A stretch of 64,000 bases of DNA from Planctomyces sp. (GCA_016795105.1 JAEUIH010000015.1:62001-126000); one strand, 5' to 3'; positions 45,023 through 49,896 are shown, counted from the stretch's first letter. Notes: generated from the sequence alone by a model not told the origin. A program made the numbers and translations.

Positions 45023-45604
45023 TTATTCTGAACGAATGCTGTCTACTTCCGGCTGGAGACTGTTCTCCGGAACACTGCCGCCGGATTGAACAGGGTCGCT
45101 ATCCTCAACGGTGTCATCAGACTGCAATTCCAGTTGTTGAAATCGCTGCCTGAACTTCGACCAGTTTTGTTGCGTCACAGTTGCATTTCGAAACAGAGCA
45201 AACGTCACTCCAAGCATAATTGCTACGGCGACGAGTTCTCGTTTTGTGATGGTTCGGGTTCGTTGGAAGCGAGAGACATAGATGAGCGTGACGATGAGAG
45301 TCCCTGCGCCGGCGAGCACCGCTGTGAGGAGCAGATAGAATCCGGTGGCATCAAGGAGCAGGAAGTTTTTGATGGCGCCGATGAAGAACGTTCCAAAGCC
45401 GGCCATGAGTGCACGGCTTTCCCATTCATAGCGGTTTGGAGAATCGTCATCGTCTGACAGATCATCCGTCACGGCAGGCGCAGTTCGACGCTGCAGGCCA
45501 GCCCGCTGGGACTGAGGCACAGGTGGAGTCAGACCGGGCTCCGACAAATGCGGCGCGGGCGGTTGGAGCGATGTAGGTTGTGAATCGTCTGGGGGAGAAG
45601 ACAC
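45023..45604 (-). CDS. Membrane protein encoded after the ECF sigma gene
   Basis: A 193-residue protein. A proline-rich, probably disordered N-terminal third ends in an acidic stretch (DDLSDDDDS) and is followed by three likely membrane helices (ALMAGFGTFFIGAIKNFLLL, FYLLLTAVLAGAGTLIVTLIYV, ELVAVAIMLGVTFALF) and a polar tail. The GTG start lies four bases after the sigma factor stop, so the two are co-translated. It has no zinc-binding anti-sigma motif (H-x3-C-x2-C), but its position makes a role in controlling the sigma factor possible. Family not recognised. Confidence 0.8.
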   Translation of the reverse strand: MSSPPDDSQPTSLQPPAPHLSEPGLTPPVPQSQRAGLQRRTAPAVTDDLSDDDDSPNRYEWESRALMAGFGTFFIGAIKNFLLLDATGFYLLLTAVLAGAGTLIVTLIYVSRFQRTRTITKRELVAVAIMLGVTFALFRNATVTQQNWSKFRQRFQQLELQSDDTVEDSDPVQSGGSVPENSLQPEVDSIRSE

Positions 45605-45607
45605 GAG

Positions 45608-46165
45608 TCAGTGGGCTCCGTCTGAGAGAATCTCTTCGATGTTGGGGAGTTGCCGAGCGGCCTGGATCGCGTGGTGGAGTCTGGACTTGACTGTACCGAG
45701 AGGCAGGCTGAGGGCTTCTGCGATTTCGGGTTGAGTCATATCATCAACAAACCTCATGAGCAGGATTTCCCGATGAGCGGAAGAAAGTGCAGCGAACACG
45801 GTATCAAGTTCATGGGGCAGGCGTGAGGTTGGGGAAGGGCTTTCGAAGAATTCGGGATCAGATTCAATACCCGCAGATTTCTGTCGTTTTCGTCGTGCTG
45901 CAATGGACAGATTTCGGACAGCCGGGTAGAGGAATGTGGTGAGCGCAGCGGAAAGTCGAAAGCCGGGGAATTTTTTGGCGAAGTAAGAAAAGGTCTCCTG
46001 CAGGACATCCAAAGCGTCTTCTTCGTGTCCGGTAAACCGCCATGCAAGCCGCATCACCCAGTCTTTGTAGCGGAAATAGAGAATATCAAAGGCGGTACCG
46101 TCCCCCTCGTTCAGACGCTGAATCAACATCTGATCAGTCTGGTTGGAGGACGATTCGGGCGGCAT
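45608..46165 (-). CDS. ECF RNA polymerase sigma factor
   Basis: A 185-residue sigma-70 family regulator. Region 2 is seen as FDILYFRYKDWVMRLAWRFTG then EEDALDVLQETF, and region 4 as LSSAHREILLMRFVDDMTQPEIAEALSLPLGTVKSRLHHA, which is the promoter-recognising helix-turn-helix. No extra C-terminal domain is present. It would direct RNA polymerase to a small regulon. A GGAAC-N17-CGTC site directly upstream suggests that it drives its own operon. The divergent genes encode a membrane-anchored dockerin protein, a cohesin-like protein and a VIT/VWA lipoprotein, which are the best candidates for its regulon or its signalling partners. Confidence 0.92.
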   Translation of the reverse strand: MPPESSSNQTDQMLIQRLNEGDGTAFDILYFRYKDWVMRLAWRFTGHEEDALDVLQETFSYFAKKFPGFRLSAALTTFLYPAVRNLSIAARRKRQKSAGIESDPEFFESPSPTSRLPHELDTVFAALSSAHREILLMRFVDDMTQPEIAEALSLPLGTVKSRLHHAIQAARQLPNIEEILSDGAH

Positions 46166-46210
46166 AAAGTTCTCGCAGACTTCCGGGAAATGCCGAGTTC
46201 AGGTTGCTAG

Positions 46211-46236
46211 GACGACCGAATTGTGCAAAAAGTTCC
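46211..46236 (-). promoter_or_regulatory. Putative ECF-type promoter for the sigma gene
   Basis: On the minus strand GGAAC (46236-46232) is followed after exactly 17 bases by CGTC (46214-46211). This is the classic -35/-10 arrangement of many ECF sigma promoters. The expected transcript would start near 46204, about 40 bases before the sigma factor ATG. Autoregulation is inferred; the sequence match is direct. Confidence 0.55.
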
Positions 46237-46291
46237 ACTTTGTTTGAACCAATTGAGCCCACAAATCACTTCAGGAGGTGGAGGCTGAATC

Positions 46292-46840
46292 ATGTCACAT
46301 CCAGAACACGACGATTCGACCGAAGATCTTCTTCCGGAAGCATTTCGGTCGTTCCTGAACAATCGCTACGGGACTGTACCACAAGTCCCGTCGAGCGTGG
46401 ATGAGCAGATTTTGCGGAATGCTCGTGAGCAGTTCGCAACAAAAACCGGGGGCTCTGGTGGACACTGGAGAAGCCGTTCGTGGTTCTTTGCAGCTGCTGG
46501 CACTTCAGTGGCCGCAGCCGGGTTGCTTGTAACCGGCTGGATGACCAGCCAATTCGCAAATCATTCGGAATCAAGTCCGCTTGTGGCAGACATGAGTCCT
46601 GGTGGCGGAGGTGGCGGAGGCGAGGGTCTGATACGAGAAAGACCGCCCGCAATGATGGCCGCCGTGTCTGATCCTCAGGATGTAGACCGCAGTGGACGAG
46701 TCGATATTCTCGATGCATTTGCTCTGGCAAGATCTCTCCGGAATGGAACGGCCGGCAATGGACGAAACGACCTGAATCAGGATGGTCGAATCGATGACGA
46801 GGATGTCGACCTGATTGCAATGAGGGCTGTGGCACTTTGA
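46292..46840 (+). CDS. Membrane-anchored dockerin-domain protein
   Basis: A 182-residue protein with a strong ribosome binding site (AGGAGGTGG). Residues 1-62 are polar and charged (cytoplasmic), 63-84 form one membrane helix preceded by HWRSRS (positive side inside), a glycine run follows (104-110), and 128-182 form a dockerin-like pair of calcium loops: D130-x-D132-x-S134-G-x-x-D138-x-x-D141 and D160-x-N162-x-D164-G-x-x-D168-x-x-D171. Dockerins bind cohesins; the next gene encodes a cohesin-like protein. The cytoplasmic part lies beside an ECF sigma gene, so it might act as an anti-sigma-like transducer, which is inference only. Confidence 0.8.
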   Translation: MSHPEHDDSTEDLLPEAFRSFLNNRYGTVPQVPSSVDEQILRNAREQFATKTGGSGGHWRSRSWFFAAAGTSVAAAGLLVTGWMTSQFANHSESSPLVADMSPGGGGGGGEGLIRERPPAMMAAVSDPQDVDRSGRVDILDAFALARSLRNGTAGNGRNDLNQDGRIDDEDVDLIAMRAVAL

Positions 46841-46844
46841 TTAG

Positions 46845-46919
46845 ACAGTGCCGCTCTGAAAACAGTGGCACTCTGAAAACAGTGCCGCTCTGAAAACAGT
46901 GGCACTCTGAAAACAGTGT
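46845..46919. repeat. 17-bp tandem repeat
   Basis: About four and a half copies of a 17-base unit, AACAGTGCCGCTCTGAA alternating with AACAGTGGCACTCTGAA, giving a 34-base higher-order period. It fills the gap between the dockerin gene and the cohesin-like gene and ends next to the latter's start. Its function is unknown; it may change length by slippage. Confidence 0.9.
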
Positions 46920-46943
46920 GATCCAGTGGGGTATTCGTGGGAA

Positions 46944-47516
46944 ATGATCATGATCAGTGAACTGGCGGGAAAGTTTTCGATTCCAATTCCTCGACTGAGA
47001 ATTCCTCGGTCCTGGGGAATTCTGATCGCGCTGGATTTCTGTCTTATCGCCTTTGCGATCGCTCAGGATAATTCTCTACATGGACAGTCCGGGATGACGA
47101 CAGATCGTCCGACGTACTCGGAAATCGAAGATCTTGGGAGTCACTCCACCGGAGATGTACGATTCGATGCAATCGATGTGTTCGTGGATTCAGGAGACGA
47201 TTTGCTGGCAGCGTACCAGCTGGAGTTTCTGAGTGACGCCGAAGGCGTTGTGTTTGTGGGTATCGAGGGTGGTGAACATCCGGCGTTTCTTCGACCTCCA
47301 TATTACGACCCTCGAGCGATGAACAACAATCGCGTCATTCTTGCATCCTTCAACGCGGGCCTCGACCTGCCAAAGGGCCGTAGTCGGGTGGCTCGAATTC
47401 ATATTCAGATGAGCGGTCCGGCAAGTCGGAAGTTTCAGACGTCTCTGATGGCTTCGGCAACTCGTGACGGCCGTCCGATTCCCGCCGACATCTCAATTTC
47501 TCGCGTCGTGCGTTAG
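46944..47516 (+). CDS. Cohesin-like exported protein
   Basis: About 190 residues from the ATG at 46944; a GTG at 46926 is the alternative start. A hydrophobic segment (SWGILIALDFCLIAFAIAQ) is a signal peptide or anchor. The rest reads as one beta-sandwich: VRFDAIDVFVDSGDDLLAAY, then EFLSDAEGVVFVGIEGG, NRVILASFNAGLDLPKG and VARIHIQMSG. This order resembles cohesin domains, which bind dockerins. Cohesin identity is by pattern only, but the adjacent dockerin gene supports it. No enzymatic motif was seen. It lies in an apparent operon with the VIT/VWA gene, 76 bases downstream. Confidence 0.6.
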   Translation: MIMISELAGKFSIPIPRLRIPRSWGILIALDFCLIAFAIAQDNSLHGQSGMTTDRPTYSEIEDLGSHSTGDVRFDAIDVFVDSGDDLLAAYQLEFLSDAEGVVFVGIEGGEHPAFLRPPYYDPRAMNNNRVILASFNAGLDLPKGRSRVARIHIQMSGPASRKFQTSLMASATRDGRPIPADISISRVVR

Positions 47517-47592
47517 ACGTCTGCAGATCTCCGGTTGGCTCTGAATTCGCACCTGTGTTGACCTGAAGTTGACCTGAAAAGGACATGCGCAC

Positions 47593-49896
47593 ATGCTGAT
47601 GGACCATCTACGCACCAGGAATTTACTGTTCGCAGTGATTCTGCTGGCCATCTGCGGTGGCTGCGGGGAGAGTGATCCTGAGCGAAGTGTCGCTGCACCT
47701 GGTGCTGCAGCTCCTGACGCAATGCCTCCTGCCGGTGCCGAAGCCTCAACTGCAGCCGTACCTGTTGACGAGGTACCGTTCGATGCAGGACAGGCTGAAT
47801 ATTCTGAGCCACCCGCAGCAATGAAGGGGGCAACTGAGGCGATGCAGAGTGCGCCAGAGGCGATGCAGGGGGCGCCAAGGCGGGCGAGAAGTGCACCCGG
47901 GGCGGCGTTGCCTGCTCCGGCCGCTGAGACGGAAAGCCCCGACATTGCTTCTGAGCCGGACAGCGAAAGGAACACAAGTGCAGAAAGCCACCTTGATTCG
48001 AGCGAGCGGTCTTTGACCAGCAGACGAAACGGAGTGGGAGAGGGATTCGCGAGTGAATCGCCGATACAGAACCAACCGTTACACAGCGAAGAACTTTGGA
48101 TCATCACCGCCGCGGATTCTCAGGTCAGTAAGCAGGAGTCCGAGAGTGGACTGGGCGCCGCCGGCCTGTTTGAAGTGGATGGTACAGGGAAGCAATACGT
48201 GGAGGTGCCGCTGAAGAAGACAACGGTGACGGGGCGGGTTGATGAATATGTATCGACTGTAAAAGTGAATCAGCGATATCACAACACCTCCGATCGAACC
48301 ATCGAGGCTGTCTATTCGTTTCCTCTTCCTGACGATGCAGCAGTGGATGAGTTCATCATGACGATTGGTGAACGCAGGATTCGAGGAATCATCAAGAAAC
48401 GCGAGCAGGCGGAGCAGATCTATCAGAACGCGCGGCAGCAGGGATTACTGGCGGCACGAATGGACCAGCAACGTTCTAACGTTTTTACTCAACACCTTTC
48501 CAACATTGAACCGGGAAAAGAGATCGACATCGAGATTCGCTACTTCAGTCCTCTGAAAACTCAAAACGGCGCATACGAGTTTGTGTTTCCGATGGCAGTG
48601 GGACCGCGCAGCAGAACGGTACACAGTACTGCGATTGGTGTGGAGGAGCCTGAAAGTGATGAGGCCGTCGATGTGCAGTATTTGACCGATGCCGAGAGGG
48701 CGACTCAGAGTTTTGAACTCGTGTTAGATGTCTATTCGGCTGTTCCTTTGATGATGGTGGAATCTGTAAGTCATGAGGCGAAGGTCAACGTGGAGTCTCC
48801 TTCTCATGCTCACGTCGAATTGACTGTTACCGGTGAACAATCCAGCAGCGACTTCGTTTTACGATATCAGGTCTGTGGTGGTGAGATTCGTACAGCGATG
48901 ATGACGGACAAGGATGAATATGGCCAGTACTTCACAATGATGGTCTATCCCCCGGCTCAGGTTATTCAGTCAGAGCGCATTCCGATGGAGATGGTTTATC
49001 TGCTCGACTGTTCGGACAGGCTGCAGGTCCGATCGCTGGAGCAGGCGAAATCCGCTGCCGCATGGTCGATGCAGAATTTGACATCGAGTGATTCGTTCCG
49101 AATTGTCGAACCCTCGGGTCAGTTCCCCGGGCCTGCGTCTTCTCCTCTGGTGGCAACCCCGGAGAACATTGCTCAGGGGCTTGAGTACCTGAAAGCTCTG
49201 GGCGACAGCGGTGATAAGAATCTGCTGATGCTTACAGAGACAGCACTGGAGTTTCCGCATGATGAAGGGCGACAAAGAACCGTCGTGATGATGACCGATG
49301 GTTTTGTTGACAATGAGGATCTCTTCATGAGAACTCTAGCCGAAGGTCTGAGCTCGTCGCGAATCTTCGCATTCGGCATCGGGCAGTCGGTGAACAGAAG
49401 CCTGATGGATCGCATGGCAATCACTGGACGAGGCGCGGTTTCCTATCTGAGTGAGAGTGATGAACCGACGCAGATTATGGAACAATTTCAGAATCAGGTA
49501 TCACATGTGGCGATGACAGACATTTCCATCAGTTTTGGCACAATGGAAGTCATGGATTTGTACCCTCGTCGCATTCCCGATCTTATCGTTGATCGGCCAA
49601 TTCTGCTCACCGGTCGGTACCGCGGAGATCCTTCTGAGGTGATCGTTTCAGGCCGCGTCAACATGACACCAGTAACGTTTGCAGTTGACGTCGATTCGGC
49701 CGACAAACGAACGTCCGAGATCGGTCTCAGATCCAGTGTTGCTCCGCTCTGGGCTCGACACAGGATCGCCGATCTGATGTCGCCAGGCCAGCCCGAGAGT
49801 TCACTCAATGAGATCATTCAAACAGCACTCAACTACAACCTGACCACTGAATACACATCGTTCATCGTCGTCGATGCAATGTCTTCGTCACCGTAA
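47593..49896 (+). CDS. VIT plus von Willebrand A domain lipoprotein
   Basis: A 767-residue lipoprotein (lipobox LLAICGGC). A long Ala/Pro/Glu-rich linker with repeats such as EAMQSAPEAMQGAP is followed by a VIT domain (about residues 190-330, with AVYSFPLPDDAAVDEF and NVFTQHLSNIEPG) and a VWA domain (about 465-640). The metal site is degenerate: YLLDCSDRL has D-x-S but not the final serine of D-x-S-x-S, while MMTDGF is kept. In animals VIT and VWA together form matrix-binding proteins; in bacteria the role is poorly known, and surface protein-protein binding is likely. It ends two bases before a paired-hairpin element. Confidence 0.88.
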   Translation: MLMDHLRTRNLLFAVILLAICGGCGESDPERSVAAPGAAAPDAMPPAGAEASTAAVPVDEVPFDAGQAEYSEPPAAMKGATEAMQSAPEAMQGAPRRARSAPGAALPAPAAETESPDIASEPDSERNTSAESHLDSSERSLTSRRNGVGEGFASESPIQNQPLHSEELWIITAADSQVSKQESESGLGAAGLFEVDGTGKQYVEVPLKKTTVTGRVDEYVSTVKVNQRYHNTSDRTIEAVYSFPLPDDAAVDEFIMTIGERRIRGIIKKREQAEQIYQNARQQGLLAARMDQQRSNVFTQHLSNIEPGKEIDIEIRYFSPLKTQNGAYEFVFPMAVGPRSRTVHSTAIGVEEPESDEAVDVQYLTDAERATQSFELVLDVYSAVPLMMVESVSHEAKVNVESPSHAHVELTVTGEQSSSDFVLRYQVCGGEIRTAMMTDKDEYGQYFTMMVYPPAQVIQSERIPMEMVYLLDCSDRLQVRSLEQAKSAAAWSMQNLTSSDSFRIVEPSGQFPGPASSPLVATPENIAQGLEYLKALGDSGDKNLLMLTETALEFPHDEGRQRTVVMMTDGFVDNEDLFMRTLAEGLSSSRIFAFGIGQSVNRSLMDRMAITGRGAVSYLSESDEPTQIMEQFQNQVSHVAMTDISISFGTMEVMDLYPRRIPDLIVDRPILLTGRYRGDPSEVIVSGRVNMTPVTFAVDVDSADKRTSEIGLRSSVAPLWARHRIADLMSPGQPESSLNEIIQTALNYNLTTEYTSFIVVDAMSSSP

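Follow-up and report, generated by a model that had tools for sequence, protein, structure and literature searches.

A putative ECF anti-sigma factor with an outer dockerin and a cohesin-like partner in planctomycetes

What is the role of a dockerin that is encoded next to a sigma factor? Cohesin-dockerin pairing is among the strongest protein clasps and, to our knowledge, it is known almost exclusively as an enzyme scaffold. In a stretch of 64,000 nucleotides from Planctomyces sp. (GCA_016795105.1 JAEUIH010000015.1:62001-126000; hereafter the window, with positions counted from its first letter), the genes of a dockerin-bearing membrane protein and of a small cohesin-like protein were found beside the gene of an extracytoplasmic function (ECF) sigma factor. 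We consider that these genes probably form an ECF sigma/anti-sigma switch that senses the outside through a dockerin to which a cohesin partner is dedicated. What was observed at the sequence level is a four-gene association, a cohesin fold, a dockerin, membrane topology signals, heads of the zinc anti-sigma type on homologues and a conserved promoter-like element.

The original prediction had placed five open reading frames (ORFs) between positions 45023 and 49896, and all five are present. The sigma gene (45608-46165, minus strand) is divergent from an operon on the plus strand that encodes the dockerin protein (46292-46840), the cohesin-like protein (46944-47516) and a VIT/VWA lipoprotein (47593-49896). 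The 185-residue sigma product has only the sigma2 and sigma4 domains, as is expected of an ECF sigma factor, with Sigma70_r2 (43.6 bits) and Sigma70_r4_2 (49.6 bits) both above the Pfam cut-off, and its orthologues in five related loci are 57-64% identical.

The dockerin and cohesin-like modules

The 46292 product consists of a head that is predicted to be cytoplasmic (residues 1-58), a membrane helix (64-82), a linker and, at the C-terminus, a dockerin (129-182) in which two calcium loops were found (DVDRSGRVDILD and DLNQDGRIDDED). Its Pfam Dockerin_1 (type I, PF00404) score is 27.3 bits against a cut-off of 22.9. The membrane helix is the only hydrophobic one, and positive charges lie mainly N-terminal to it here and in nearly all homologues, so that the dockerin is predicted to be outside. 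The earlier description of this protein as a head, a single membrane helix and an outside two-loop dockerin is therefore borne out by the domain score and the charge pattern. In the structural model, helices were observed at residues 10-13, 16-26, 34-52, 64-88, 139-151 and 169-181, with both dockerin helices being confident, and the sole confident fold matches were 2vn6_B (1.6 Å root mean square deviation, rmsd) and 4uyp_B, which are dockerins from solved cohesin-dockerin complexes. At its recognition positions the dockerin has Ile-Leu in the first loop and polar residues in the second, the two halves thus being unlike. Three further dockerin matches (L001, L003 and L004) occur in the window's genome, all in frames of 1300-1500 residues, two of which share one contig approximately 5 kb apart.

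The 190-residue product of the next gene carries a signal peptide followed by a beta sandwich at about residues 56-190. An AlphaFold2 model of this protein was built from seven homologues with a mean predicted local distance difference test score of 80. The six best Foldseek matches of the model were all cohesins (probability 0.99-1.00), as were the first 47 VIA-align rows (Z 9.9-6.6), of which the best has an rmsd of 3.0 Å over 123 residues. The homologue from the locus L116 narrowly exceeds the Pfam Cohesin cut-off (24.8 versus 24.1), and the family is therefore tied to cohesins by sequence in addition to fold. The original prediction, which described this product as an exported beta-sandwich, was to stand or fall with a cohesin fold, and this fold was found, with Z values of up to 9.9. 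A search of the 46944 product against the sequences of the PDB gave nothing significant.

The neighbouring protein is the sole candidate partner of the dockerin that was detected, because the window's genome contains no Pfam cohesin and the cohesin-like family is matched there only once. No cohesin-like relative was found in viral contigs. Two further candidates were examined and rejected: an apparent fusion of the cohesin-like and VIT/VWA proteins in L047, where the frames are separate, and a cohesin beside a dockerin in G019, which is one secreted and unrelated protein bearing both domains.

Conservation of the gene group and of a promoter-like element

Relatives were gathered with the cohesin-like protein alone, giving 48 loci after removal of duplicates, and the neighbouring genes consequently serve as independent evidence. 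The dockerin protein was found directly upstream in 46 of the 48 loci; the other two are on short contigs that reach only 0.8 and 1.1 kb further upstream. A sigma factor of the same family occurs in 39 of the 48 loci (37 of the 41 with at least 2.5 kb upstream), the VIT/VWA protein in 38, and all four genes together in 31. With 84 sigma70_r2 matches over the 8.9 Mb of the window's genome, chance alone would place a sigma gene in the 3.5 kb upstream about 3% of the time; the sigma association is far above chance. The sigma gene is divergent in the window and in 12 related loci; in the remaining 26 loci with a sigma gene, it is collinear. With the exception of the three-helix gene described below, the genes were thus observed to stay together across many genomes, a point on which the earlier proposal had been made to depend.

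The loci span Planctomycetaceae, Phycisphaerae, Sedimentisphaerales, other Planctomycetota and one metagenome-assembled genome of Verrucomicrobiia; these are the taxonomic labels of the records, and one locus labelled Kuenenia (L032) is likely to be mis-binned. Among 392 genomes sampled evenly from Planctomycetota, 27 were found to encode the cohesin-like protein. The 21 strongest matches to the dockerin protein in the same genomes all have a cohesin-like neighbour, including an apparent exception (G110) in which one was found on inspection.

The deepest members (L112, L113, L114, L116, L163 and L164) encode the sigma factor and the dockerin protein together with a cohesin-like protein that begins with what resembles a lipoprotein signal, and they lack the VIT/VWA protein, from which it follows that the core of the system is made up of the first three. 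The VIT/VWA position is taken by a YfbK-type VWA protein in L164 and by a DUF4349 protein in L163. A DUF4349 protein is also encoded between the sigma and dockerin genes in L025 and L032, with similar ORFs in L026 and L031, and it may be an accessory part; in L163 its gene lies downstream.

The bipartite promoter-like element TTGAACC-N17-ACTTCA lies 5' of the dockerin operon (46244-46273, plus strand). The corresponding pattern TGAAC-N18-[ACG]CT[TGC][CA]A was found 5' of the dockerin gene in 12 of the 13 divergent loci and in four of the five loci without a local sigma gene (16 of 18), including some whose unlinked sigma factor persists elsewhere in the genome. Dinucleotide shuffles gave a mean of 0.10 and 0.03 loci for the two sets respectively, and with any other spacing no more than one locus matched. 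Six matches to the strict pattern occur in the window's genome compared to none for the reversed control; a loosened pattern was not above chance within the window. The other five strict matches are mostly inside genes, four of them within reading frames and one upstream of another sigma gene, which suggests that the sigma factor may mainly control its own operon. We claim no further target and thus no wider regulon. The match upstream of the other sigma gene (L154:1567-1596) adjoins a divergent ferredoxin gene. A candidate ECF-type promoter of the sigma gene itself (GGAAC ... CGTC; 46211-46236, minus strand) has a weaker basis than the dockerin-operon element, as GAAC followed by CGTC with a spacer of 16 or 17 was found in five of the 13 divergent loci.

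The product of the last gene of the operon has 767 residues and was confirmed as a VIT/VWA protein, with VIT (114 bits) and VWA_3 (33.2 bits) both above the Pfam cut-off. Its further assignment as a surface binder is doubtful in this genome because the metal site of the VWA domain is degenerate and reads DCSDR and GDK instead of the DCSGS and GGT seen at almost all other loci. A tail of the form '[GT]TV.VPVPVPEGVRYDTTV' terminates nearly all of the VIT/VWA homologues and is absent from the window protein. The VIT-VWA architecture is shared across most of its length with TIGR03788, the marine proteobacterial sortase target family (377 bits), but the window protein is under the family cut-off of 552 bits and is a lipoprotein with no evident sorting tail.

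Two other features were observed in this part of the window. A 17-bp tandem repeat at 46845-46918 (4.4 copies, 89% matches, consensus ACAGTGCCACTCTGAAA) takes up most of the sequence that separates the dockerin gene from the cohesin-like gene. The ORF of a three-helix membrane protein (45023-45604) begins four bases past the sigma stop. This protein had been proposed as part of the system; the ORF is real, but it has no counterpart in the relatives and lies outside the conserved unit. No relative was found in 97 of 98 other genomes, with a single marginal match, and the protein, which these searches indicate is lineage-specific, was rejected as a component.

The anti-sigma assignment and its alternatives

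The anti-sigma factor of the system is most likely the dockerin protein, and as far as sequences can tell the case is good. Its gene adjoins that of an ECF sigma factor, as is characteristic of class I anti-sigma factors, in 37 of the 41 loci with sufficient flank. Seven homologues in the same position within the 48-locus set (L050, L100, L101, L112, L113, L114 and L116) have heads with the H-x3-C-x2-C motif, as do those of L163 and L164, and in L113 a single protein contains both zf-HC2 (38.0 bits) and Dockerin_1 (36.2 bits) above the curated Pfam cut-offs. A profile made from the non-zinc heads was able to recover the zinc heads of L100 (1.5e-9) and L050 (5e-6), the best of 3000 shuffled heads being 0.02, while those of L101 (0.024) and L116 (0.56) were indistinguishable from shuffles. 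The zinc motif is present in about 56% of class I anti-sigma factors (ASDI) and is hence optional, and the mixing of zinc and non-zinc members in one group is normal for this class (PMC7406223). Three short helices precede the membrane helix in the window model; the N-terminal domain with which class I anti-sigma factors bind the sigma factor has four helices. A search of the L050 anti-sigma protein against PDB sequences returned nothing significant. The zinc anti-sigma heads of the homologues, together with the conserved promoter-like element, strengthen the earlier proposal of an action of this protein on the sigma factor.

In the mechanism that we propose, the N-terminal head of the dockerin protein would bind the sigma factor and keep RNA polymerase out of its reach, while on the outside its dockerin would be held by the small cohesin-like protein that is exported. 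If this docking were lost or gained, the anti-sigma factor would change in stability or shape and free the sigma factor, which would then transcribe the operon so that the anti-sigma, cohesin-like and VIT/VWA proteins are remade as a feedback that restores the lock. As to direction, we can only guess, with about an even chance of being right, that by analogy to RseA and RseB the docked cohesin stabilizes the anti-sigma factor and undocking triggers the release. Undocking could possibly be caused by loss of calcium, by envelope damage, or by competition from the VWA lipoprotein or its ligand. That cohesin-dockerin docking outside sets the sigma activity inside, and does so in many families of Planctomycetota reaching into Verrucomicrobiota, appears slightly favoured over its negation.

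Several observations weigh against this assignment. The head in the window (about 58 residues) is short and has neither a Pfam match nor the H-x3-C-x2-C motif, and the 46944 product matches no Pfam (Cohesin, PF00963, included) or NCBIfam family, the former being the reason that it is termed cohesin-like here. Most of the loci come from metagenome-assembled genomes; one genome with the locus (G045) is complete in a single contig and so probably comes from an isolate. The sigma gene is unlinked in L041 and L042, in which a close orthologue was found elsewhere in the genome (7.7e-92 and 3.7e-66 respectively, with the next best at 4.2e-19 and 4.5e-24). The element pattern was derived from the divergent loci, which are also most of those counted, and the four loci without a local sigma gene are for this reason the fairer test; among the collinear loci only two of 26 have the element, so the promoter type must differ there. 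Finally, calcium, which the earlier proposal had named as part of the signal, cannot be a general control, because the loop-1 calcium ligands are absent in six loci (L046, L047, L049, L106, L109 and L111) and the proteins of L050 and L114 contain only half a dockerin. In the loci without loop-1 ligands, the start of the first helix, D-I-[LV]-[DE]-A-[FYL], is retained or nearly retained, and these sequences point to selection on the docking surface and not on calcium binding by loop 1.

An unlikely alternative, albeit the one that survives best, is that the pair is structural. The dockerin protein would then anchor the cohesin-like protein, and thereby the VIT/VWA lipoprotein, at the envelope in an adhesion or integrity complex, and the sigma factor would be controlled by other means and merely regulate the operon. 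The well-studied cohesin-dockerin pairs are indeed all assembly modules, and VWA lipoproteins recur at these loci, with the YfbK-type protein of L164 as a substitute for the VIT/VWA protein found in 38 of the 48. However, the same dockerin proteins bear zinc anti-sigma heads beside a sigma factor, and VWA proteins are dispensable to the core, as no VWA gene was found near the sigma, dockerin and cohesin-like trio in L113 and L116.

Somewhat less likely again, the dockerin protein could be an anti-sigma factor whose dockerin binds other cohesins or is a bare calcium sensor, with the cohesin-like protein acting elsewhere, for example on the VIT/VWA protein. The retention of the calcium loops in most members would suit a sensor of this kind. 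Against it, the hydrophobic face of the helix, DI[LV]DA[FY], survives the loss of the loop-1 ligands and fits a docking surface, the dockerin and cohesin-like genes are strictly adjacent, and the search of the window's genome left no alternative partner detected. It is highly improbable that the locus is what remains of a cellulosome-like enzyme assembly, or a small relation of one such as the proposed 'planctosome', even though freshwater Phycisphaerae are described as having non-cellulosomal cohesin and dockerin proteins (PMC6461901). The gene content largely refutes this reading, as a single-domain cohesin-like protein occurs with no multi-cohesin scaffoldin and no dockerin-bearing enzyme.

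Relation to known systems and significance

The sigma/anti-sigma unit with an outer dockerin that we favour is a member of neither the SigI/RsgI nor the RseA/RseB system. RpoE, RseA and RseB comprise an ECF sigma factor, an anti-sigma factor with one membrane helix and a periplasmic protein that acts on the outer part of the anti-sigma factor. RseB is however no cohesin and RseA has no dockerin, and a similar way of working is suggested by analogy. RseA belongs to the class I anti-sigma factors (PMC7406223). In SigI/RsgI of Clostridium thermocellum, an autoregulated sigma gene adjoins that of a one-span anti-sigma factor whose N-terminal part binds the sigma factor in the cytoplasm and whose C-terminal part is a binding module outside the cell (PMC4711584). 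The sensors of RsgI are carbohydrate-binding modules or GH10, and its sigma factor is of the SigI type and not ECF (PMC4711584), whereas the present unit has a dockerin as its outer module, encodes a putative protein partner for it and has no polysaccharide enzymes alongside.

Non-cellulosomal cohesin-dockerin modules of Planctomycetota also occur in the 'planctosome' of Nemodlikiaceae, which is proposed to assemble peptidases with large multidomain anchoring and adaptor proteins and for which the sections consulted describe no link to a sigma factor (PMC6461901). The fold of both modules is shared with the cellulosomal type I cohesin-dockerin pairs (6kgc and 2vn6), but the present locus has a single cohesin and neither scaffoldin nor enzymes, unlike a cellulosome. 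The cohesin fold and the conserved association support the earlier suggestion of a non-cellulosomal use of this pairing at a sigma factor locus.

It seems that the calcium-dependent clasp of cellulose-digesting complexes has been built, in planctomycetes and some relatives, into a membrane switch that controls a sigma factor. We found no earlier description of this, or of a dockerin-bearing anti-sigma factor, in the open-access literature, which is not proof that none exists. The parts of the system are small and soluble enough for direct testing. If the proposal is true, the link between cohesin-dockerin pairing and an anti-sigma factor would amount to a new mode of transmembrane sensing, and orphan cohesin and dockerin genes that do not belong to cellulosomes would gain a function. 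Planctomycetes have very many ECF sigma factors that are uncharacterised, and one of these would thereby acquire a first input that can be tested.

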